From the NCBI GenBank assembly GCA_907165275.2, contig OU015649.1, positions 3,254,001 through 3,318,000 of the forward strand: DNA of 64,000 nt, given 5' to 3'. Positions within the stretch are counted from its first letter, which is position 1, and each line of letters starts with the position of its first letter. A program made the position numbers and the translations under genes. The notes beneath the pieces are model-generated. The model was not told the origin of the DNA. It saw nothing but the letters and a program-made list of their open reading frames with translations, and did no database searches. Positions 4,007 through 60,275 of this stretch are shown here, in pieces. The stretch comes from Zygaena filipendulae (Eukaryota; Arthropoda; Insecta; Lepidoptera; Zygaenidae).

Positions 4007-4698
4007 GTCCGGTCAATTTAGACCAAAAAATGAGAGTGAAGTTACATAAAGTCCCAACAAGCTAAATTTCAGTGAAATTGTTCAAAACATAATTATAAAC
4101 AATGTCTAGAAGTTCCCCATCATTCCCGTGTAAGGAAAAATTTTTATTCAAGGTCAAAGGTCAAAAAAATGAGTTTTTCGCGATTTTCAGCAAAACAGTA
4201 AGTTTTATCATAAAAGTACCTCAGACAAAAATTGTAGATCATAAAATTATCTATAAAAAATGTATCAATACTTTTTTCTTACGAGCCACCGTTTCTGAGA
4301 TATAACGATTCAAAAAGTTATACAATCGCGCTAAGTACACTACCTCATAGGTGGCGTGGAAACGTGTGCATATTATGACGATAACAACTTTTATAACTTT
4401 TTGAATCGTTATATCTCAGAAACGGTGGCTCGTAAGAAAAAAAGTATTGATACATTTTTTATAGATAATTTTAAGATCTACAATTTTTGTCTGAGGTACT
4501 TTTATGATAAAACTTACCGTTTTGCTGAAAATCGCGAAAAACTAATTTTTTTGACCTTTGACCTTGAATAAAATTTTTTCCTTACACGGGAATGATGGGG
4601 AACTTCTAGACATTGTTTATAATTATGTTTTGAACAATTTCACTGAAATTCAGCTTGTTGGGACTTTATGTAACTTCGAATGTCTAAATTGACCGGAC
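4007..4698. mobile_element. 692-bp fold-back element with about 310-bp arms
   Basis: Near-perfect inverted arms (about 4007-4322 and 4383-4698) around a roughly 60-bp centre. Ends are GTCCGGTCAATTTAGAC and GTCTAAATTGACCGGAC, each next to TA, the target of Tc1/mariner-type transposases. Matching blocks include cattcccgtgtaagga, ttcgcgattttcagc and cagaaacggtggctcgta. ORFs of about 70 codons in each arm mirror one another and are not genes. Confidence 0.85.
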
Positions 4699-29600: not shown

Positions 29601-32600
29601 CTTCAAATGAAAGGTACGAAGTCCCTTCTTCCTCAAACCGGAACAAACAAGGTTGCTAACGCTGAGCGAAAAAAAAAGAAAATGCAGGAAATTGTCGTTT
29701 CTTATCCATTTCCGGAGTTCGTAAAAAGCGATGAGTTTGAAATCATTTACACTACGATGAATTCTATTTTCAGAACAAAAAATTCAGTCAATATAGTCAT
29801 GTAGTAACATGTGTGTTTGAATGCACGACAAACAATTTTAGCAAAATATTGAAGTAGAGATTGGCGTCTGCGTTCTTGCAAGAATGTAACTAACAATAAG
29901 TGTTACATTTTACATTACTTTTCACCCAGCTATGTTTCATGTAATGGCCGGTTTACACTTCCTAAGTAAAAAACCACGTGTGGACACAACTTGCCGCAGG
30001 ATAGAAACCACTTCTATTTTTTTGGCAGGACAGTAGCGCGTACACGTGTAAACCGGCCATTACACGAACTCAAATGTATTTTACAATATTTACTTTCCGC
30101 AATAAATTTTTTATACAGTGTTCAATTTGACTTTTTTATGCAGACACGGATTACTCGTATAAAATAAGTGTGGGTGACAACGCCAAGTTGGGATAAAAAT
30201 ACGCTATGTCATTCAGGACTACCGTAGCTTTCTATAAGTGGAAGAATTTTCAAAATCGGTTTGGTAGATCCAAAGATTACCCCTACCCTACAACGTCACA
30301 AACTCGCAATTCACAAACTTTACCTCTTTATAATATTAGCATAGGTAGATGAGTGCACTGGCAATATTGGTCATCTTAACAAACCAGATTCCTACTAGTT
30401 TAGAGATAGGCAAAGATATTATTTACTCACACACACATGTCCATTATACTGAACTCCCCTCATAAGCCGGTGTGCGAATTATTTGGCGCGTACACTGGGG
30501 CGGTTCAAGGTCGATTATAATATCGATTACCCACTCTAATAAAATAGGGTAGGAACTAGGAAGGCACAGGAGACAAGTTGATGGCATCCAAACCCCATTT
30601 AAATAGATTAGATTAATTAATTTATAAAATCTAATTTGATACCATATTGTTTGAAAGAGAAGAAATATTATTATGTATTATTATGTATATTAATATATTA
30701 TTATGTAGGTACCTTATATCCTCGGAAGGAGATAGAGGAGCCAAATGCAACAAAATTCCCCTAAAGTTGAGACATAATTAGATGCCATTTGAATTTATCA
30801 AAAACCTTTTTTTATTCTTACTTATCTTTGATTTTTAACCAACCCATTCCGGACAAATCTTCGTGACTTTTGGTTTGCTGTTTTGATAATGTATATTTGT
30901 AAACTTTTGAAAAAAAAGGGACCTAGTAATTTTTTTATAAAATCAATAGATGCTCTTCGCTATGACAAAAGCTTAAAATGGAAGTGGGCTTGACATGTAG
31001 CAAGACTTCAGGACCAGAGATGGACTGGAGATGGAGAGGACCACAAGGAAAAAGAAAGAGGGCTCGGCCAATATTTAGGTGGGAAGACGACATAAAAAAC
31101 ATTGCTGGTCCAAAATGGCTACAATGGGCATGTGGATTAATTTTTATTTTTTAGTCAGTCTTGTAGATTATTAAAAAATATTGGACACGTATTTTTCTTT
31201 ACTTGCGTAAGCAAAAAATAACGGCGATATATTGAGTTGAAATTTCGCGTGACGTCACTATTCTGACAGTTTGTATGGCGGTTTTGCGGTTGGTGACGTC
31301 ACGACCTCCTCATCCTTAACTTTAAAGCGCTTTATCTCTGAATATTTTAATTTATTTAAAAAAAGCAAAAAATACGTGTCTATTGTTTTTTTATTTTCTG
31401 ACGGACTAATTAGAATTTTGATTTTCAAAAGTAGTCCACATCCATATTGGTTTGTAGCGGGAGCGGGATGTGTGATATGGCTCGACCGCCACCAAAGGGG
31501 AAGCTTCCCGCCGGGCGAGGTGTTATGCCCGGGGAACCGCGGCTCCGACTGTAGATCGTCGGAGGTCGTATATATGCAGCGTATATGTGAAAACTTCGTT
31601 AGCGCGATTCACGTAATTAGTATTCGTCGCTTCATTCTAGTTCGTAACTTGTGGCGTAGAGGTCGCCACAGTACTCCCTCCCAAGACCGAAGGTCTGATT
31701 GTCCGAAGCTCAGTTATCTCAATTGCCACTTGAATGTCCCAGTGAGTCGGGAGTGCGTTGCTATATCCCAGTGAGTCGGGTGTGCATTGCTTTGCTCTGT
31801 GGTCTGCGGTGAGTCGAGACCGTGTGAGCGTGCTCTTAGTCTGCGGTGAGTCGAGACTGTATTGAGCGATGCCGACTTGTTGGCGCCAGGAGATGTCCTG
31901 CCGGTGTGCCACGCTGGAGAGTTGTCCTCGGATCCAGGGCGTGGTGATGCGGGCGGATGTGCTGGTCGCTGAAGTCGGTGAGGTACGGGTGCTTGGTATC
32001 AGGACCAGGAAGCTCAGTGCGTCGGCTGCGTTGGCCCTGAAGGTTGACCCGTTACGACGGTTATTCTAACTGACGTTGTGGACGGTTTTATGAAACTGCA
32101 ATGTGAATGTTTGAGACTTGTGTGCTACTTTATTTATAAATAAATTCTTAAACAAGTTAAATAGAAGTGAATATTCCATTCTATTATGATTTAAGAGACG
32201 AAGACTACTACTTTTACGTGATATAATACTTATAATAGTGATCTAGTTGAACGCGATAGTACCGATGAAAAGTTTGTGGTAGATAATCGAAAAAATGGCT
32301 CAATACAAATTGTGTGAGATCGCGTCTGACGGAAAAAGCGTAGCGCCTTCAAAGTTTGGATCTACAGAAAACAGTGTAAAAATGTCTTCCAGTAACATCA
32401 AAGTGATGGTTAGAGTTCGGCCGCTGAACCCCAAAGAAATGGAGCTAAACAATCGCATCGTAATCGACGTTGTAGATGACACGATGCTGGTTTTTGATCC
32501 TAAAGAAGAAGCTAGCCCATTTTTCTACCAAGGCGTGCAGCAACCTAACATGAATTTCCTAAAACGACCCAATAAAGAGCTAAAATTCGTTTTTGACCGA

Positions 32601-35600
32601 GTGTGTGGACCTGATGCAACGAATCAAGATGTCTTTGAAATCACCACTGTAGCGGGAGCGGGATGTGTGATATGGCTCGACCGCCACCAAAGGGGAAGCT
32701 TCCCGCCGGGCGAGGTGTTATGCCCGGGGAACCGCGGCTCCGACTGTAGATCGTCGGAGGTCGTATATATGCAGCGTATATGTGAAAACTTCGTTAGCGC
32801 GATTCACGTAGTTAGTATTCGTCGCTTCATTCTAGTTCGTAACTTGTGGCGTAGAGGTCGCCACAGGTTCAAGACCGGAGTAGATGGAAGAGTTTGGAGG
32901 AGGCCTTTACCCATTATCAGGGTTCCTGAAAAATTATATTATGTATAAATAGTTTAGTATAAATCGTTTTAGTATAAATAGTTAACAAGTTTAAAATATC
33001 AGGAAATAAAGGCTTTTTATTTTTTATTTATTTATTTATTATACCTACTGCACGACTTTCCTTTCGCTCGGTATTGCAAATTACGAAACAACTATGATGG
33101 TAAGCTGAACATAAACGCAATTAGCGATGTTCTGTAGAATTTGCGTGTCCATTTTATCACTTTGCAGTTTGCGTATACATAATAATTATGTCGCAGGCGG
33201 ATTGTTTAATCTGTTCGTTTACAAAACTTCTGTTTTATTAACACTTCTGTTTTATGTTCGTTAAGACTGTAATCTGTTTTGTGTTCTAAATAAATAAATA
33301 AATAAATAAAAACTTGTCATTAATTACAATACAGAGGACAGAAAATGCCGCTTTTTGTATTTGCAAATACTGCGACGTGCTAGGCTAAGTTAGGATTTAA
33401 ATGTGACCACAACATAGTTAAATGGTACCGATACCCAATGCGCTTGCTAATACCACTACAACGCATTTTTCGTCCTCGACACTATGTAGATATCTAAACA
33501 AAATGTCGGCCGTTTGTAAACGGACAAATTAAGCGATATGACGACGACTTATGTAACATACAGTGCATTTACTAGGGAAAGTAGTCATAATATTATTTAT
33601 ATGGTATATATATGTATCGTATTTAGAATGTGTTGTTCCGCTTGTACCATTTCTCTCACTTTGGTATCTATTCAAGTTATATCAAGCTATATCAAGTCAA
33701 TAGTATAATGGTACAGTGCAGAATATATCAAGGCGTGCGTGATACATCGGTTCGTCAGGGTAGATATAATATGTCGTATCAGCCCATTGAACTAATATTA
33801 CTAGTGTTATCAGCTACACCCATCGAATTATTTGGTGTTATTTTACAAGCCGTTATACCTATATAAGCGAGTTTGTAAAAAAGCATAAAGGGAATCTTTT
33901 TTTTTTATTGCTATTTCTTAGGCATAGAGCTTGTCCATCTCATACCCAAGTAACGTATTGGTCTATCATATAATTCATATTACGAACACCATGGGCGGAT
34001 GCCAGTCAACCGTAAGCGCATGTTACAGTAATCGTTGCCTCTTTTACTATTGTATTCCACATCAGGCGTGTTCCATTTTCGAAAGCCCGATTGTGTTCAC
34101 GCGTGCGCACGGGCCGGCGGCGCCGGCGGCGCGCGGCGTAGGTCTACACATGCGTAACCGCTGTCACAACGAACACTGGCCAGCTAGGCTATCACGATGG
34201 GAATCAATGGCATTACAATAAAAAAAAGTTGAATCAGTATCTATTCAGTACTGGTGGAAAGTTAAAATACACGTTGGTTGTCACACTCACATGCATGCGC
34301 GGTGAACGCCACCTCGTATCAAAACTAAGCTGAATAGCATAGCACATATATTATATTTGTGTTATGGAGAGCTGATTACTTGCCATTTTTTTATCGTAAA
34401 TATGTATAGGCAAAAATTTCAGAAATACCGGTGTTTTGGTGTTTATTGCGATAATGTTCATGTCATAGAGGAAGAAATATAATCACTGATCGACATAACA
34501 GAAAATGACAACCAAGCACTACAGCTGTAAACAAATGAATTTGTATTCTAGTAACGAGAAAAATCCGAGGAATACAAACTACTGGCACCTACTGGAGTTA
34601 CATTCGCGGTAGCACATTTCATTGCAAATTGATCTGTTTATAAACCGGTAGGGTCGTTACACTGCTTGCTAGCTGCGCTATACAAAGCGTTAGATTTAAA
34701 TACTATGGAATACGATGCTAGAATATTGCGCAAAACAACTATAAAATATTGTGCAACAAAACTATAAAACTGGAGCTAGACGAGAGCCAAGAAAATATTG
34801 CAAGGAGACATAAGAGGAGACAACTACTATTTTACTTGACTATTAAAAAAGAAGTAATTTATAATGAAGTCCGAATGATAATGTTGGGCCACGTCATAGG
34901 TCAAAAAAGATTATTATCTATACATACATATAAAATGCTTTGTTCTGAATGACTAATTGACGGATCAACGCACAGCCTAAACAGCTGATTGTAGACCAGA
35001 AACTTGGAGGGTGTTTTCTTTTTATGACATAGGCATCCGATATGGATTATTGAAAATTCTACCCTTAGGGGGTTAAATAGGGGGGTAAAGTTTGCATGGA
35101 ACAATTCCGCGGGAACTACGAAATTAACGCGGGTAAAACCGCGCAGGACAGCTGTCAGCTAGTAAATAATACAACATAATTTTTTATTTAATAAAAAAAA
35201 TATGTGTAATGTTTATAGCTGGTGCACGCTATTGTTGTCTATGTTCTGTCTCTATCCGAACGTGTGCAAGCAGTCATTATTTTTGGTCAGCTTCAGTTTT
35301 TACTTCCATGCGCGTGCGTGTTAAAATAATGTAACGTCAAAGGAGGTACCTATTGAACAGTTTTTTAACTTTTTCATCTCTCACGTGTGGATTCTAACTG
35401 ACACTATAGTGTAGGTGCCACCGACACCCGACCAACTGCCGCGGCCGTGACATCTCCGGTCATTCACCTCGCCCACTGGTCTTTATACCGACCTACAAAA
35501 CGCGTTTCACTCTTTTTACGACGCGTTTATGTCTATATTCGTGTGGCGTATAAGGGAGCGATTTGTTCAAAACCGCAGTACGAATTCCTTGGCTGCGGAC

Positions 35601-43507: not shown

Positions 43508-44620
43508 ATGAGTACTTTGCAAAATTGCGCCGCCTGTCGAAATCGCCTTCCAATAAAAGAATATATACGATGTATGATCTGTAAATCTTCGTATGATTTA
43601 GATTGTGCTAATATTAGTTACAAACTCTTCACTGTGATGGAGCGGAAAAATAAATGGAAGTGCTCAGAGTGTCTGAAAAAAAGGACAAAATCGGGAAACA
43701 CAAACACACCCGTGCATAGTGCCGAAGAGGTAGGCAGTGGTGCTGGTGAGAGGGACTCAGCAGGGCTCGTGGGGTCGTACGATGGAACTGATTCAAATGT
43801 CACCCGCCGGACAAAGACAAATCGATCTGCTGCAAACAGCGAGCAAAACAGCCCCATTGCTTCCCCTCACCCCGACAACGCTATGCTGACTGAACTAAAA
43901 GCCTATATGCGTGAATTGTTCCGTAGTGAGATAGAAAACTTACATGGGGCTATCACAGATTTAACGGACACAATAAAGGCGCAGAATAGCCGCATGGAAC
44001 GACTGGAAGCAAGAGTCTATGCGCTGGAGAATCGCGGAGAAGAGACTGAGAGACTACCTTGCGATGTCACATCGCTCGAGGAGACTATTTCACGGCTACA
44101 AGCTGACATTGCTGACCGTGATCAGGCTCTGCTAGCCAATGACATAGAAATATCAGGTTGCTGCGAAACACCGAGTGAAAATTGTATACATTTTACTATT
44201 GCCATTGCGAAGAAGATTGGTGTGGAGCTGGATGAAAGGGATGTGGTGAGTGCGGAGCGCGCGGGACCGCTGCGGTTAGCGGGGGAGGATGGCGCGGCCC
44301 GGCCACGCCCACTGGTCGTGCGCTTGGCGCGCCGCGCGCCTCGTAGTGCGCTGCTGAAGGCTGCACGCGTGCGCCGCAACCTCACCACTGATGGCCTGTC
44401 ATTGCCTGGACCCGTGAGCCGTATATATATTAACGAACGTCTCACCAAGAACAATCGTCTACTTTTTCAGAAAGCGAGAAAACTAGGTCGCGACTCAGAA
44501 TTTAAGTTTGTATGGACGAACGATGGCAGCATCTTTGCGCGTCGAGAACACGGTGGAACACGTTACAGATTGCGATCCGAAGCGGAGTTACTACGGGTTT
44601 TTGGCAGAACGGATGTTTGA
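43508..44620 (+). CDS. CR1-like LINE-1 ORF1 protein (PHD finger, coiled coil)
   Basis: 370 residues. Residues 8-57 form a PHD-type zinc finger (CAAC, CMIC, DLDC and CSEC, with a Trp before the last pair). A linker rich in Ser, Asn and Gly follows, then a coiled coil (about 130-215: MRELFRSEIENLHGAITDLT and RMERLEARVYALE). The C-terminal third resembles the RNA-binding ORF1 region of non-LTR elements (VVSAERAGPLRLAGEDGA, INERLTKNNRLLFQKARKLG). ORF1 proteins of CR1/Jockey-type LINEs bind the element RNA. The ORF is undamaged. ORF2 begins 221 bp downstream. The 5' UTR probably starts near 43340. Confidence 0.9.
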   Translation: MSTLQNCAACRNRLPIKEYIRCMICKSSYDLDCANISYKLFTVMERKNKWKCSECLKKRTKSGNTNTPVHSAEEVGSGAGERDSAGLVGSYDGTDSNVTRRTKTNRSAANSEQNSPIASPHPDNAMLTELKAYMRELFRSEIENLHGAITDLTDTIKAQNSRMERLEARVYALENRGEETERLPCDVTSLEETISRLQADIADRDQALLANDIEISGCCETPSENCIHFTIAIAKKIGVELDERDVVSAERAGPLRLAGEDGAARPRPLVVRLARRAPRSALLKAARVRRNLTTDGLSLPGPVSRIYINERLTKNNRLLFQKARKLGRDSEFKFVWTNDGSIFARREHGGTRYRLRSEAELLRVFGRTDV

Positions 44621-44841: not shown

Positions 44842-47694
44842 ATGTATAGCTATAAGAAAAAAAAATTGAGATTAGGGTTGTTAAATGCTAGATCCTTAAA
44901 TACTGGTCAAGATGAACTTGCTGTAACTGTGCTAAATTATAAACCGGATGTTCTAGCTATCAATGAAACCTGGCTAAAGGAAGGAGAGGAGGCTCTGGCG
45001 CCATCACTATCAGGTTACAGGTTCATACACAGAGCGCGTAAAGGTAAGAGGGGTGGCGGTGTCGGCTTTTATGTTAGACGAGGCATTGATACACGGGTAC
45101 ATGCACACCCACCTTCTCTACTGGAACAGCTCTGGCTCGAGGTTCAACTGCCCGGGGCTACTCTGGCTCTTGGTACTGCGTACAGACCTGAGAGTATCAG
45201 CGTCCAGGAAACATTGGACGCCCTCAGTGAATCAATTTGCTCACTCGCGCGCTGTGAGTACACCTGTGTCCTGGGCGATTTGAATGTCGACCTTATTCAG
45301 ATCGGATCAGCACGGGCCAGTGAGTTGTTGACATTCTGCCACCAACATAATTTAGACCAACTAGTTAAAGAACCGACTAGGATAACGGATGTTTCTGAAA
45401 CAATCATAGATATTGTACTAACTGATAGCATATCTCGGTGTACAGATGTCAAAGTACTACATAACCAGTGCCTAAGCGACCACGCTATGATTTTAGTTGA
45501 TTTTAATATTAAAAAACCAAAAATGATAAAAAACGTGACATCTCGACGATCATTGCAAAATATTGACATAGAACAATTTACTGCAGATTTGAACTTAATA
45601 CCTTGGCAACACATTTATGAACTATCGAGTGTCGATCAAATGGTAGAGACTTTTGATAATTACATTATCACTTTATTTGATGCACATGCGCCGGTAAGGA
45701 AAGTAATTCATAGAGACAAAGTTAAACCGTGGATAACGGATACTATGAAATTCATGATGAACTTGCGGGATAAAGCCTTGGTGAAAGCTCAAAAATGTAA
45801 GACAGAAAGCTCGAAAAACTACTATCGCAGTCTGAGGAATCTCATAACGGCAACGAAAAAGTTGGAAAAAAAAGCATATTTTAACCATTACATAAACAGA
45901 AACCTAAAAAACCCAAAATTACTATGGACAAACTTAAAAAACACAGTTATATATAAGAATGTAAGTTCAAATTTCATTCCCGATCACCTGAACGATCCGG
46001 ATAAAATTAATGACCACTTCACAAACTTACCAGCCTGTAATAATGTGGACCTGAGGAAAATATCTGGAGATGGTGACACGGTTCAACAACGTAACATATT
46101 ATTTGAATTAAAATTGGCCACCGAAACGGAAGTTCAAAAAATTATATACAATATTAAAACAAAAGCTGCTGGACTTGACAACCTTAATATAGAGATGGTG
46201 AAACTAACTGTAGATGTGACACTTCCAATTATTACAGCAATAGTTAATAAGTCTATCGAGACTTGTACCTTTCCGACTAGCTGGAAGAAGGCATTAGTCA
46301 GGCCTCTGCCAAAAAAGAACTCTATTGACAAATTAAAAGACCTGCGCCCGATTTCAATTCTGCCAGTGCTCTCAAAAGTCGTTGAGAGTGTGGTTCTGGG
46401 TCAAGTTCTTAGCTACCTAGAAAATACGTCAGTTATACCCAAGTATCAGTCGGGCTTTCGCAGGGGCCATGGCACGGAAACTGCACTGTTACATGTAACA
46501 GACGATATCACTGAGGCATCGGACCGTGGCTTGAGTACCATAATGGTGCTGCTTGACTACTCTCGCGCCTTCGATTGTTTGCACCCAGGTCTTCTCCTGG
46601 CTAAACTGGAATACTATGGCTTTTCACCGAGGACAGTCCAATGGTTTGAATCGTATCTAACTGGTAGAGAGCAAATGGTTATCACTGACGGAAAGGATGG
46701 AGAAAAAAGGTGCTCTACATTGAGGAAACTCTATCGTGGTGTGCCCCAGGGAGCACTATTGAGTCCCATTCTCTTTACGATTTTCACAGCAGATTTAGTT
46801 AAATGTATAGAATCATGTAAATACCATTTATACGCAGATGATACCCAACTGTATTATTCGTTCAAGAGTGAAAACGTGCGGGAAGCAATAAACAAAATAA
46901 ATAGCGATCTCCACAAAGTTTACAATTATTCACAAGATAATTCTCTCGTCCTGAACCCCGAAAAATCTCAGTTATTAGTATTAGGAACCAAACATCAAAT
47001 ACAAAGGGTACGGGACTGTCCGGAGAAAGTAAAAATTAATGGTGTCGTAGTTGATCAGGTAAAAACTGCACGTAACTTGGGACTGATTTTAGATGGAGAG
47101 CAAAAATATATAGACCATGTAAATGAAAAAATCAGAAATGCTTTCTTCAGACTGAAAACGTTATACAAAATAAGACCCTGCTTAAACGAGGAGTTGCGAC
47201 TTCTTTTGACAGAGACACTCGTGCTCTCTCCATTCAACTACTGCAGCTCCGTCTTTGGCCCCAGGATAAACAGCAATACTGAGCGAGCTATTCAAAGGGT
47301 ACAAAATGCCTGCATTCGATTCAGTTTTAATATAAAGAGAGGGGAACATATAACCCCTTATTTGAACAAAAAGGGTATTCTGAATATGAATGCTAGAAGG
47401 GATCTCCATTATGCCTGCACTGTCCAAAGGGTGATCTGGAATGGAAAACCTGAATACCTATTTGAGAAACTTACGTGGGTGAAAGATGTAACTCATAGAA
47501 CCCTGCGTTCCGCCACACAAAATTTGATCAGCGGAGCTAAGATGCGGCACACGACAAAATTTTATCGAGCCCTTTTATCGATTCTCGTCGACAAACTCGT
47601 ACTTATATCGTTTTGTCTACCAGTGGTAACATGGCAGCAAAAAATGTTTGTATGGCAGAAAACGATATATGATAAAATTGTCGACAATCCCTAA
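44842..47694 (+). CDS. CR1-like LINE-1 ORF2 protein (endonuclease and reverse transcriptase), 3' end replaced by an insertion
   Basis: 950 residues as an open frame. Residues 8-235 are an apurinic-type endonuclease (LLNARSLNTGQ, INETWL, GGGVGFYVRR, LGDLNVD, CLSDHAMILVDF). The reverse transcriptase spans about 490-780 (LRPISILPVLSKVVESVV, SGFRRGHGTETALLHVTDDI, LLDYSRAFDCLHPGLLLAKL, GVPQGALLSPILFTIF, and YHLYADDTQLYYS with the catalytic YADD near residue 664). The true LINE sequence ends near 47540; the last roughly 50 residues come from an inserted element. The missing C-terminus reappears at 49386. The RT core is complete, but the element is broken and probably not mobile now. Confidence 0.92.
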   Translation: MYSYKKKKLRLGLLNARSLNTGQDELAVTVLNYKPDVLAINETWLKEGEEALAPSLSGYRFIHRARKGKRGGGVGFYVRRGIDTRVHAHPPSLLEQLWLEVQLPGATLALGTAYRPESISVQETLDALSESICSLARCEYTCVLGDLNVDLIQIGSARASELLTFCHQHNLDQLVKEPTRITDVSETIIDIVLTDSISRCTDVKVLHNQCLSDHAMILVDFNIKKPKMIKNVTSRRSLQNIDIEQFTADLNLIPWQHIYELSSVDQMVETFDNYIITLFDAHAPVRKVIHRDKVKPWITDTMKFMMNLRDKALVKAQKCKTESSKNYYRSLRNLITATKKLEKKAYFNHYINRNLKNPKLLWTNLKNTVIYKNVSSNFIPDHLNDPDKINDHFTNLPACNNVDLRKISGDGDTVQQRNILFELKLATETEVQKIIYNIKTKAAGLDNLNIEMVKLTVDVTLPIITAIVNKSIETCTFPTSWKKALVRPLPKKNSIDKLKDLRPISILPVLSKVVESVVLGQVLSYLENTSVIPKYQSGFRRGHGTETALLHVTDDITEASDRGLSTIMVLLDYSRAFDCLHPGLLLAKLEYYGFSPRTVQWFESYLTGREQMVITDGKDGEKRCSTLRKLYRGVPQGALLSPILFTIFTADLVKCIESCKYHLYADDTQLYYSFKSENVREAINKINSDLHKVYNYSQDNSLVLNPEKSQLLVLGTKHQIQRVRDCPEKVKINGVVVDQVKTARNLGLILDGEQKYIDHVNEKIRNAFFRLKTLYKIRPCLNEELRLLLTETLVLSPFNYCSSVFGPRINSNTERAIQRVQNACIRFSFNIKRGEHITPYLNKKGILNMNARRDLHYACTVQRVIWNGKPEYLFEKLTWVKDVTHRTLRSATQNLISGAKMRHTTKFYRALLSILVDKLVLISFCLPVVTWQQKMFVWQKTIYDKIVDNP

Positions 47695-57227: not shown

Positions 57228-60200
57228 TTGTGTTTATTATTGCTATATAGTATAAATCTACATTTTTACATATTGATTACATATTTACATATTTTGTACA
57301 CAACCTTTAATATTTGTAATATGCTGGAGAGTGATAGTGATAATAGTGAACACTTCTATTCTTGTTCCTCCAAAGAATCGGATTCGAGTGCTAATGCCGA
57401 AGAAAGCTTTAATAGTGCATACGCACATCTGTCTGAGCGAGTTTCCTCGTGTTTTTCTAATTTAGATAAGAACTTCAACGTGATACACATCAATGCCCAA
57501 AGTATCCCGGCTCATTATTCGGATCTCCTCGCTTCTTTTGAACACAAAAACATCCATGCTATTTGTATTTCTGAAACCTTTCTCAAGCCTTCCTTAGCAT
57601 CTTCCTTCTACCAATTGCCTGGTTTTCATCTGATTCGCAATGACAGACTTGGGAAGGGTGGGGGAGGTGTAGCTATTTATCTCCGGAGTCATATACCTTT
57701 TTGTATTGTGAGTAAATCTCCTTCGGAATATTCCGGCTCTGCTGAACACCTGTTCCTAGAAGTTACGCTATCCCACGTTAAGGTTCTGCTTGGTGTGTAT
57801 TACTCCCCTAATCTCAATATTGATTATTTCGCGTCTCTTGAATCCCTCCTTGAAAATTTTGTTCCCACTCATTCTCACTTTATACTTCTAGGCGATTTCA
57901 ACACTTGTCTTTTAAAAAATAATTTCCGCTCTCGCAAACTATGTTCCCTTGTACGTGCAGCCGACTTGCACCTTCTTCCATCTGGTCCTACCCATCACTC
58001 TCCCGGATGTGAGCCATCCCTTCTTGACCTACGTATTGTGTCGTCAATTGATCATGTGGCTTCGTATGGCCAGCTAGATGCCGATGCCTTTTCATACCAC
58101 GACCTTATCCACCTCTCATACAAAATCCGCCCTCCCAAAGCAAAACCGAAAATAGTGCTGCGCCGTAACTTTAAGGATGTGGATGCTGACGGGCTCAGAA
58201 ATGATGCGGTGAAATCGGCGTGGTCTGCAGTGCTTAACGCTGAAAATGTTAACAGTGCTATCGCTATATTTAATTCCTTGCTCATTGAATTATACGACAA
58301 ACATGCCCCTGTTCGAGCGGTGCGTATAAAACACGTACCTGCCCCTTGGCTAACACCTGAAATTCGTGACCTCAAAACCAAGAAGGATTCGGCCAAGAAC
58401 AAATACAAAATTAGCAGCACAAAGATCAACGAATTAAGGTACCATAAAGCTAGGAACCGGTGCAATACAGCCTGTAGGGATGCACGGCGCCGCCATATCC
58501 ATTCTTCTATCAACCCTTGCGACGCCTCTGCCACCTGGAAATTCTTAAGCACTGTTGGCATCGGGAAACAAAAACAGGATACTTGTGCGCTAAATGTGGA
58601 TGTCGAAGCATTAAATCGTCACTTTTGCAATAGTTGTGATTTCGACGCTGCCACCAAAGCGAGTACCATCTCTCACTATTCAAACTCTCCACCTTGTTCA
58701 CATGATTCTTTTTCTTTCTCTCCTGTATCGGAATATGATGTTAAGAGGAATATTGAATCTATTTGTTCTAATGCTGTTGGTAGTGACGACATTGGTAGGA
58801 CTATGATCATCCTGCTTCTTGACATCCTGCTCCCTGTTATCACTCATATTGTTAATCTTTCTCTAGCTTCTTCCTGTTTTCCTGATGCCTGGAAGCAGGC
58901 CACCGTGATCCCTATACCTAAGATCAAGGATCCATCTTCATTTTCACACTATCGACCGATCTCTATTCTTCCCTTCCTGTCCAAAGTTCTTGAGCGCCTT
59001 GTTCACTATCAACTCTCTACGTTTCTTTCTCAGAATAACCTTATGAATGAGTTCCAGTCCGGATTCCGCCCTGGGTATAGTACTGCTACTGCCCTTATAA
59101 AAGTTACTGATGACATTCGCCTGGGGATGGAAGAGCAGAAGGTAACTGTACTTACTCTTCTTGACTTCAGCAACGCATTCAACACAGTTGACTTTGACGT
59201 CCTGCTATCCTTAATGGGAACCCTCAATGTATCCTCTCCTGCCTTACTTTGGTTCCGTAGCTACCTGGATGGGCGCCAGCAGCAGGTCAAAATTGACGAT
59301 AAATGTTCCAACCTGTGTAGTACTACTGCTGGCGTCCCTCAAGGCGGAGTCCTCTCTCCCCTGTTGTTCTCCATCTTCATCAATCCCATTACTTCCACTC
59401 TCTCCTCCAAATTTCATCTTTATGCGGATGATCTTCAGCTGTATATGCAGGAGACGATCAACAACATCGCGCACGCTGTAGATGCAATGAATGAGGATCT
59501 GCATAAGATTGCATCGTGGTCGGCGGCTCATGGTCTTACAGTGAATCCAAAAAAGTCCCAAGCAATCATCATAGGTAGCCCCCGCCAAATTGCAGCTATT
59601 GATCGTTCTTCTATTCTTCCTATTACTTTTCAGGGTGTTCCTATACCTTATTGCGAGTTCGTTAAAAATCTTGGCGTATATTTTGATCGCACCTTCTCGT
59701 GGTCCCGCCAAATCGGTGAAGTAAGCAGGAAACTGTTTGCCTCATTGAGCTATTTAAGGCGGCTACGCAACTTTCTTCCCATCTCTACCAAAATTACCAT
59801 TGCCCAATCCTTACTTTTGCCCATCCTTGATTATGCCGACGTCTGTTACACCAACATCACTGTCGAACAGCTGGACAAACTCGAACGGTTGCAGAATGTG
59901 TGTATCCGCTTCATATATGGATTGCGTAAGTTTGACCATGTTTCTGAATACAGGGTTAGGCTTGGCTGGCTCCCGATCCGATTGAGGCGCAATGTGCATA
60001 TCCTGCATACAGTATATAAGGTACTACATGATCCCATGGCCCCTACCTACCTTAAAGAACAATTTAAGTTCTGCTCCGACTGTAGTGGCCGTGCTCCTCG
60101 TTCCTCTACTTTTAAACTGATTGCTGTCCCTTTCCATAAATCACGGTTTTTCGAAAAATCCTTCACTGTCGAAAGTATACGCCTGTGGAACTCCCTCCCC

Positions 60201-60275
60201 GACTCGCTCAGACAGAAAGAGTCATTGGGCTCTTTTAAAGCTGCACTTCAAAGGCACTATTTAACTCAATTATGA
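57228..60275 (+). CDS. LINE-2 ORF2 protein (endonuclease and reverse transcriptase), apparently intact
   Basis: Up to 1015 residues. The frame opens at 57228 with a Leu/Ile/Tyr-rich stretch that is probably untranslated; the Met at 57321 (MLESDSDNSEHFYSCSS) is a likelier start. Endonuclease at about 85-300 of the open frame (VIHINAQSI, ICISETFL, GGGGVAIYLRS, LLGDFNTCL, SYHDLIHLSY; the usual SDH is SYH here). RT at about 540-830 (YRPISILPFLSKVLERLVHY, FQSGFRPGYSTATALIKVTD, LLDFSNAFNTVDFDVLLSLM, AGVPQGGVLSPLLFSIFINP, FHLYADDLQLYMQ, with YADD near residue 732). The end has WNSLPDSLRQKESLGSFKAA. No internal stop or frameshift is seen, so this copy may still be active (inference). Confidence 0.93.
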   Translation: MCLLLLYSINLHFYILITYLHILYTTFNICNMLESDSDNSEHFYSCSSKESDSSANAEESFNSAYAHLSERVSSCFSNLDKNFNVIHINAQSIPAHYSDLLASFEHKNIHAICISETFLKPSLASSFYQLPGFHLIRNDRLGKGGGGVAIYLRSHIPFCIVSKSPSEYSGSAEHLFLEVTLSHVKVLLGVYYSPNLNIDYFASLESLLENFVPTHSHFILLGDFNTCLLKNNFRSRKLCSLVRAADLHLLPSGPTHHSPGCEPSLLDLRIVSSIDHVASYGQLDADAFSYHDLIHLSYKIRPPKAKPKIVLRRNFKDVDADGLRNDAVKSAWSAVLNAENVNSAIAIFNSLLIELYDKHAPVRAVRIKHVPAPWLTPEIRDLKTKKDSAKNKYKISSTKINELRYHKARNRCNTACRDARRRHIHSSINPCDASATWKFLSTVGIGKQKQDTCALNVDVEALNRHFCNSCDFDAATKASTISHYSNSPPCSHDSFSFSPVSEYDVKRNIESICSNAVGSDDIGRTMIILLLDILLPVITHIVNLSLASSCFPDAWKQATVIPIPKIKDPSSFSHYRPISILPFLSKVLERLVHYQLSTFLSQNNLMNEFQSGFRPGYSTATALIKVTDDIRLGMEEQKVTVLTLLDFSNAFNTVDFDVLLSLMGTLNVSSPALLWFRSYLDGRQQQVKIDDKCSNLCSTTAGVPQGGVLSPLLFSIFINPITSTLSSKFHLYADDLQLYMQETINNIAHAVDAMNEDLHKIASWSAAHGLTVNPKKSQAIIIGSPRQIAAIDRSSILPITFQGVPIPYCEFVKNLGVYFDRTFSWSRQIGEVSRKLFASLSYLRRLRNFLPISTKITIAQSLLLPILDYADVCYTNITVEQLDKLERLQNVCIRFIYGLRKFDHVSEYRVRLGWLPIRLRRNVHILHTVYKVLHDPMAPTYLKEQFKFCSDCSGRAPRSSTFKLIAVPFHKSRFFEKSFTVESIRLWNSLPDSLRQKESLGSFKAALQRHYLTQL

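Follow-up and report, generated by a model that had tools for sequence, protein, structure and literature searches.

How does the beginning of a host gene come to lie, in reverse orientation, between the two long terminal repeats (LTRs) of a retrotransposon? The question is raised by positions 31449-32869 of the 64,000-nucleotide stretch of Zygaena filipendulae DNA analysed here, which we call the window (C1:3254001-3318000, C1 being our handle for contig OU015649.1). An LTR element at this locus encloses the start of a kinesin-8 gene, joined to the element inside its primer-binding site. On its sequence features we take the carrier to be a terminal-repeat retrotransposon in miniature (TRIM), and we refer to the carrier together with its kinesin piece as the composite. 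The account to which we give slightly better than an even chance is that one TRIM copy, while being reverse-transcribed in a particle that a Gypsy element provided, gained the initial 592 bases of a kinesin-8 transcript. The parts of the locus are as follows, in window coordinates.

31449-31452, no strand: target-site duplication GGTT, left copy, read from the sequence; single GGCT in repeat copies L083-L086
31453-31670, minus strand: 3' LTR of the element, a direct repeat of 218 bp
31671-32053, minus strand: TRIM non-coding interior that was kept, 383 bp, from alignment with other copies
31674-31682, minus strand: polypurine tract GGGAGGGAG, read from the sequence, 3 bases (TAC) from the 3' LTR
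32054-32055, no strand: two extra bases AC, where the TRIM has GT in 14 of 15 rows and GC in one, and the kinesin gene has TT
32056-32294, plus strand: captured kinesin-8 5' untranslated region (UTR), antisense to the element, matching C6:12271639-12272245 (minus strand)
32295-32647, plus strand: captured kinesin-8 coding start (ATG, 117 codons and 2 bases), antisense to the element
32641-32647, no strand: 7-nt junction TCACCAC, found both in the kinesin gene and on the primer-binding side
32648-32865, minus strand: 5' LTR of the element, a direct repeat of 218 bp
32866-32869, no strand: target-site duplication GGTT, right copy, read from the sequence; single GGCT in L083-L086

One insertion and the gene piece inside it

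The two 218-bp LTRs differ by a single mismatch (31616/32811), start with TG and finish with CA, and GGTT stands on their outer edges only, with none on the inner edges. A preliminary description, made from the letters of the window, had reported the LTR pair, the outer GGTT and a polypurine tract beside one LTR, and we recovered all three. The assembly that we searched comprises 366 Mb in 56 contigs. When the flanks were joined and used as a query, the right-hand repeat was uninterrupted across the join in 17 rows (best 40 of 407 candidates), and all four empty-site rows that were read (L083-L086) have a single GGCT at the join. The empty-site copies agree over only 7-11 bases on the left side, because another, nested repeat lies immediately left of ATTGGTT in the window, and the duplication is to be read with the caveat that the match up to GGTT also occurs in 4 of 17 other copies of the left repeat. 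The flanks and the uninterrupted repeat copies agree with the single LTR element proposed in the preliminary description, and the plain reading is a single insertion with a 4-bp target duplication. An element on the plus strand is ruled out, since there is no primer site past 31670 and no purine tract ahead of 32648, and the minus strand has both. The left neighbour, at about 31131-31445, is itself an interspersed repeat with imperfect inverted arms, the right end of which has at least 17 other copies (best 40 of 407 candidates).

The match to the kinesin gene extends over 32056-32647 (592 bp, 5' UTR included). Its coding part, 32295-32645, encodes a kinesin-8 N-terminus (KIF18A, E 1.4e-16), which bears out the earlier assignment to the start of a KIF18-type kinesin; the Pfam Kinesin and Microtub_bd matches to the same segment are under their cut-offs. 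As the piece reads on the plus strand and the element on the minus strand, the gene is antisense to its carrier. At the DNA level the piece has two genomic places, itself and C6:12271639-12272245 (both candidates scored), and at the protein level three, the third being insignificant at E 3.2 (all three candidates scored). The parent locus is therefore on a different contig from the composite, and the fragment is not contiguous with the rest of a kinesin gene here; contiguity would have told against the single-element model. The C6 gene appears intact: its exon extends beyond the captured end, more motor exons follow, and lepidopteran KIF18A/B relatives, which are its best named matches, are 68-79% identical to its first 200 residues. 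Seven exact stretches of 31-73 nt are common to the composite and this gene. A second kinesin-8 paralogue was considered as donor, and none was found by genome searches with DNA or protein. A search for viral contigs with the kinesin piece gave four pattern matches, none of which was confirmed. The composite is single-copy in the assembly, so that the further copies envisaged in the preliminary description are not present there.

The extent of the exchange is apparent from comparison with another TRIM copy, L010, which carries 95 bp where the composite has the kinesin piece. The last 7 of these (TCACCAC) are common to both, so the kinesin piece takes the place of 88 bp on the primer-binding side. 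Two earlier statements have to be revised in this light. The interior of the element was not replaced, as 383 bp of it persist that are not kinesin, and the kinesin sequence is not cut exactly at the LTR, because its last seven bases belong equally to the primer-binding side. The placement of the fragment at the primer-binding site holds: the junction lies inside the site, of whose 18 nt the composite has 6 left and 12 lost. At the switch points there is microsimilarity of 7 nt at the LTR-side join, and none, with 2 extra bases instead, at the leader-side join. Seven or more shared nucleotides occur in 41 of 79,200 breakpoint pairs (chance about 0.0005). The AC at 32054-32055 matches neither source and reads as an untemplated join. 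Host sequence enclosed by both LTRs and a target duplication, one of the marks of LTR-mediated capture, is present.

The carrier family and a candidate helper

A genome search with 31453-32865 returned 69 matched pieces (best 40 of 678 candidates), a lower bound that is also our lower bound for TRIM copy number. Thirteen canonical copies measure 881-924 bp and consist of a 218-bp LTR, about 480 bp of non-coding interior and a second LTR. Perfect 4-bp target duplications flank all 13 of the directly repeated full-length copies that were cut out; the alignment has 15 cut-out rows, two of which (L015 and L018) have rearranged ends and are outside the 13. Read on the minus strand, the order of parts is LTR, G, primer-binding site, leader, interior, polypurine tract and LTR. 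The canonical primer-binding site after the first LTR is G TGGTGACCCCGACGTGAT, with few variants among copies, and the polypurine tract stands shortly ahead of the second LTR in nearly all aligned copies. Across LTR and interior the composite is 97-98.5% identical to its seven nearest copies, with 8 differences in 600 bases from L010. In the composite the TRIM interior is not the starting point of any open reading frame of at least 120 aa, though one that begins in the left flank runs into it and stops at 31774. The canonical copies are within the size range of TRIMs (less than about 1 kb, with LTRs of 100-250 bp), and the composite, at 1413 bp, is larger because of the kinesin insert. It is from this size, together with the non-coding interior, primer site, purine tract and duplications, that we classify the carrier as a TRIM, that is, a miniature, non-autonomous and non-coding LTR retrotransposon.

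The primer site TGGTGACCCCGACGTGAT is presumably the complement of the 3' end of tRNA-Trp, a primer that is also used by avian sarcoma/leukosis viruses. The corresponding pattern, CAGTGGTGACCCCGACGTGA, has 133 genomic matches at two or fewer mismatches, and its reversed control has 0. The tRNA-like LTR sequence that is a hallmark of Helenus elements was not seen, with no ARAGORN tRNA in the window and no Rfam tRNA family at 30900-33500.

Three further observations may be added. At L078 1486-1524, a tRNA-like 3' half ending in CCA, AAATCACGTCGGGGTCACCA, lies in genomic DNA; it agrees in sequence with the primer site and looks like a reverse-transcription primer that was copied and then integrated. 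In both LTRs of the composite, mir-2774 is matched over its full length (31488-31555 and 32683-32750, minus strand; 21.4 bits against a gathering threshold of 51, E 0.038), which may be chance, or the named microRNA family may be LTR-derived. Finally, C21:1738775-1751881 is a tandem array in which TRIM sequence (query 3-504) occurs five times at a spacing of about 3151 bp; L026 spans three of the five.

The need for a helper, pointed out in the preliminary description, stands, but the parent Gypsy with the same LTR that it anticipated was not found. The LTR is the TRIM's own, and the related Gypsy has a different LTR of 460 bp. The two elements nevertheless share LTR start sequence, purine tract and primer-site core. 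One copy of the Gypsy has its 460-bp LTR starting TGTAGCGTCCTCTACGC, compared with TGTGGCGACCTCTACGC for the TRIM; after CCTACA it has a T and then TGGTGACCCCGAGGG, with 12 nt in common with the TRIM primer site; and its purine tract GGGGGAG lies three bases ahead of the 3' LTR.

Two chimeric loci connect this Gypsy with the TRIM. At C22:9596377-9598326 (L017/L069) an inverted TRIM arrangement is joined to a U5 piece, a primer-binding site in its full length and some 1.2 kb of open Gypsy pol. The pol is in the sense direction, comprises reverse transcriptase, RNase H and the start of integrase (domains named by eye), and is followed by the Gypsy LTR start. It has 14 matches (all 14 candidates scored), five of which, besides L069 itself, span 1193 bp at 98-99%, and it belongs to a young Gypsy family. 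At C54:1512351-1513357 (L031), TRIM positions 1-451 are joined to inverted and direct LTR pieces of the same Gypsy. The similar LTR starts and the two chimeras make this Gypsy the best helper candidate, and we regard it as the likely helper of the TRIM. A further rearranged copy, L015 (C23:4225610-4226443), has as its primer-side LTR a snap-back palindrome, in which the LTR start is followed by the same end inverted. This copy must have been altered before integration, because AGAG flanks it on both sides despite the snap-back LTR.

Route and timing of the capture

We considered which step of reverse transcription could have brought the kinesin piece in. The preliminary description had offered a helper element or template switching at the first strand transfer, and the second of these does not account for a piece that is antisense and beside the primer site. 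We suggest that the later, plus-strand step would account at once for the orientation of the piece and for its position. The plus-strand strong-stop DNA would have run through the LTR and stopped after 6 bases of the tRNA end, leaving a 3' end GTGGTGA. This end would have paired with the UCACCAC of a kinesin-8 mRNA packaged in the same particle and been extended toward the 5' end of the mRNA, after which the extended strand would have rejoined the minus strand of the element past the 88 replaced bases. The LTR ends and target duplication support the view that the composite then integrated as a unit, and, to judge from the divergence described below, most of the kinesin differences would predate that insertion or have stood in the donor allele. 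The antisense orientation, the join within tRNA-copied bases and the 7-nt match at that join all fit a plus-strand step. The account is further favoured by the rearranged copies L015, L017/L069 and L031, in which this end of the element has likewise suffered accidents.

Several observations weigh against this route or against parts of it. It requires that the strong-stop DNA ended early within the tRNA copy. The leader-side join lacks shared bases and carries two additional ones, which run-off at a template end may have left; the extra AC differs from cap-copied C residues. The parent gene, which was located as the preliminary description had proposed, has no intron across the captured span, and splicing therefore cannot tell an RNA from a DNA template. 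No tRNA-Trp gene was found, with 0 genomic matches to two anticodon-arm patterns; a T-arm pattern gave 11 matches, some of them primer sites, and ARAGORN reported no tRNA in the six loci kept. The primer site of the candidate helper departs from that of the TRIM beyond the 12 common nucleotides. Other Gypsy elements (L050 and L063, both with reverse transcriptase domains and L063 also with a protease domain) carry the full primer pattern together with the LTR end CCGCTACA, and a different helper is therefore possible.

The divergence of the kinesin piece adds to these points. The LTRs differ at 1 of 218 sites, whereas 20 of the 588 sites at which the kinesin piece aligns with the C6 gene carry substitutions, in addition to 4-bp and 19-bp indels, so that 3.4% for the piece has to be set against 0.5% between the LTRs. 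Half of the 20 substitutions are in the UTR and half in the coding part, where 5 are synonymous and 5 are not. In binomial comparisons with the LTR pair, entered with 581 sites, P is 0.011 when all sites are counted and 0.0024 when the count is limited to UTR plus synonymous sites; a Fisher test of kinesin against LTR divergence gives 0.022. The TRIM part has 3-4 changes in 601 bases that recur in no more than one of the 30 other rows (leaving out position 164, where the two LTRs differ), and against these the kinesin divergence has P 0.004-0.05. Since the kinesin divergence exceeds that of both LTRs and TRIM, a capture made recently and in one step from the assembled allele does not fit. The freshness claimed in the preliminary description thus holds for the LTR pair and not for the kinesin piece, and the numbers suggest either a donor allele that was already a few percent off the assembled one or an earlier move of the composite.

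As regards the 19-bp difference, the 5' UTR of the C6 gene (L009 about 4490-4530) has GTAGATAA twice, 11 bp apart, and the captured piece has it once; either the gene has duplicated the stretch or the copy has lost one unit by slippage.

To polarise the five amino-acid differences we used 52 sequences (49 from named Lepidoptera and 3 unnamed, some from the same species). At residue 86 the composite has M, where 48 of the 52 have K, 2 have R and 2 have a gap; as 48 of 52 keep K, the M is derived. Residue 4 falls where nearly all sequences have a gap, and residue 86 is the only one of the five to which the set gives a direction.

These data bear most directly on the possibility that the capture is old, the composite having moved at least once more as a unit while co-packaged normal TRIM RNA refreshed its TRIM part, so that we see a late descendant. 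The excess of kinesin over LTR and TRIM divergence is what such a history would leave, and the M at residue 86 is a sign of decay. On the other hand, DNA and protein searches of the assembly reveal no second composite, and an element that has kept 6 of its 18 primer-site bases should be inefficient in any further rounds. The same numbers would follow from a donor allele that had diverged, or if the donor sequence had come in by introgression from a related species. We see an old capture as a possibility of some substance, though one that falls well short of even.

We are more doubtful that the switch was made during minus-strand synthesis, with the enzyme leaving the TRIM RNA for an antisense kinesin-8 RNA or a ready kinesin cDNA and returning at the primer site. 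For LTR-mediated retrocopies, the route that has been published is template switching onto mRNA packaged with the element (PMC5408686), and the final DNA would be the same. A first-strand switch from sense mRNA would, however, place the gene in the element's own orientation, and here it is antisense. Antisense RNA would thus be required, and the join within tRNA-copied bases would be left unexplained.

Later repair is a weaker proposition still. A TRIM would have inserted normally, and a double-strand break in its leader would have been patched with kinesin-8 DNA by synthesis-dependent microhomology repair. DNA could serve as the template, since the captured span is intron-free in the gene, and the 7-nt microhomology and 2-nt filler are compatible with such a patch. 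It should, however, postdate the insertion, yet it is 3.4% off the only genomic source as compared with 0.5% between the LTRs, a discrepancy for which a divergent donor allele could still account. Repair also gives no reason for a join inside the primer site, and at least one other rearranged copy (L015) was altered before integration. All this makes repair improbable in our view. Least credible of all are chance neighbours or misassembly, with two separate solo LTRs beside a kinesin pseudogene, which we reject because the duplication is confined to the outer edges and uninterrupted repeat copies exist; the 99.5% LTR identity and the continuous run of the interior into LTR and polypurine tract argue against it too, and no supporting point was found.

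If plus-strand capture is what occurred here, it may have a wider bearing. We propose, tentatively and with more doubt than conviction, that an LTR element's plus-strand strong-stop DNA can take host mRNAs as templates, priming on them with a few tRNA-copied 3' bases, which would be a distinct and predictable capture route. Such a route would set gene pieces antisense beside the primer site, and the element promoter would at once yield RNA antisense to the donor gene, raw material for silencers like Pxyfem in Lepidoptera. In the present case, transcription from the TRIM LTR may, as a possibility only, give antisense kinesin-8 RNA.

Elsewhere in the window there are two non-LTR retrotransposon frames (44842-47694 and 57228-60275, plus strand; 950 and 1015 aa) with endonuclease and reverse transcriptase domains. 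An open reading frame at 43508-44620, preceding the first of them, matches Baculo_FP_2nd.

The composite among known gene-capturing elements

Tan et al. are said to have described LTR-mediated retroposition in metazoans in 2016. LTR elements are credited with moving gene pieces, and the edges of such events are easily lost with age. The record at this locus keeps both LTRs, the target duplication, empty-site copies, the parent gene, the canonical element and a candidate helper with its chimeras. The antisense orientation and the primer-site junction indicate a strand-transfer step that carries a prediction for other genomes, and the young LTR pair beside a more diverged kinesin piece makes a dated puzzle, to which a divergent donor allele, introgression or an earlier move of the composite could be the answer.

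In the available text of the relevant articles, LTR-mediated retrocopies are documented in animals (PMC5408686). Like the composite, metazoan cases have a host gene piece in an LTR element, a short match at the switch point and a partial transcript (PMC5408686, PMC9674220); they differ in that the carrier here is a non-coding TRIM and the piece is antisense and joined inside the primer-binding site. A survey of lepidopteran retrocopies credits mainly non-LTR elements, and the word "kinesin" does not occur in its available text (PMC11675541). The closest lepidopteran parallel is Pxyfem, the W-linked Masc retrocopies of Plutella xylostella, for which a template-switch origin was proposed (PMC9674220). 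In both cases part of a host transcript is fused to sequence of an LTR retrotransposon, with short microsimilarity. Pxyfem, as described in the text available, is multicopy, occurs as the reverse complement within transcripts that are linked to small RNAs, and has LTRs that could not be located (PMC9674220), whereas the composite retains both LTRs and the target duplication.

Gene-carrying TRIMs are known from plants, where the accessible text reports 30 elements in seven subfamilies (PMC4717578). They resemble the composite as miniature non-coding elements with two LTRs, a target duplication and exon sequence (PMC4717578, PMC13317346). Their duplications are of 5 bp and all but two of them have at least two copies, whereas here the host is an animal, the duplication is of 4 bp and the composite is single-copy. 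Among animal elements, PbTRIM of the harvester ant (PMC3532108) and the Helenus TRIMs (PMC10886601) are, so far as their available descriptions go, likewise short non-coding LTR elements with a primer site, a polypurine tract and 4-bp duplications, and they share a reliance on an autonomous helper, which is Gypsy for animal Helenus (PMC10886601). The string "captur" has no occurrence in the accessible text of the PbTRIM article (PMC3532108), and the bivalve TRIM article names, in its accessible text, no autonomous partner for its element (PMC6934838). Our literature search, with most subscription papers outside its scope, returned neither an animal TRIM that has captured a gene nor a case of antisense capture at a primer site. 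The kind of capture, LTR-mediated, is thus a known one, and it is the orientation, site and preservation that are unusual: an animal TRIM, an antisense insert, a junction in the primer site and intact edges are here combined in one element.

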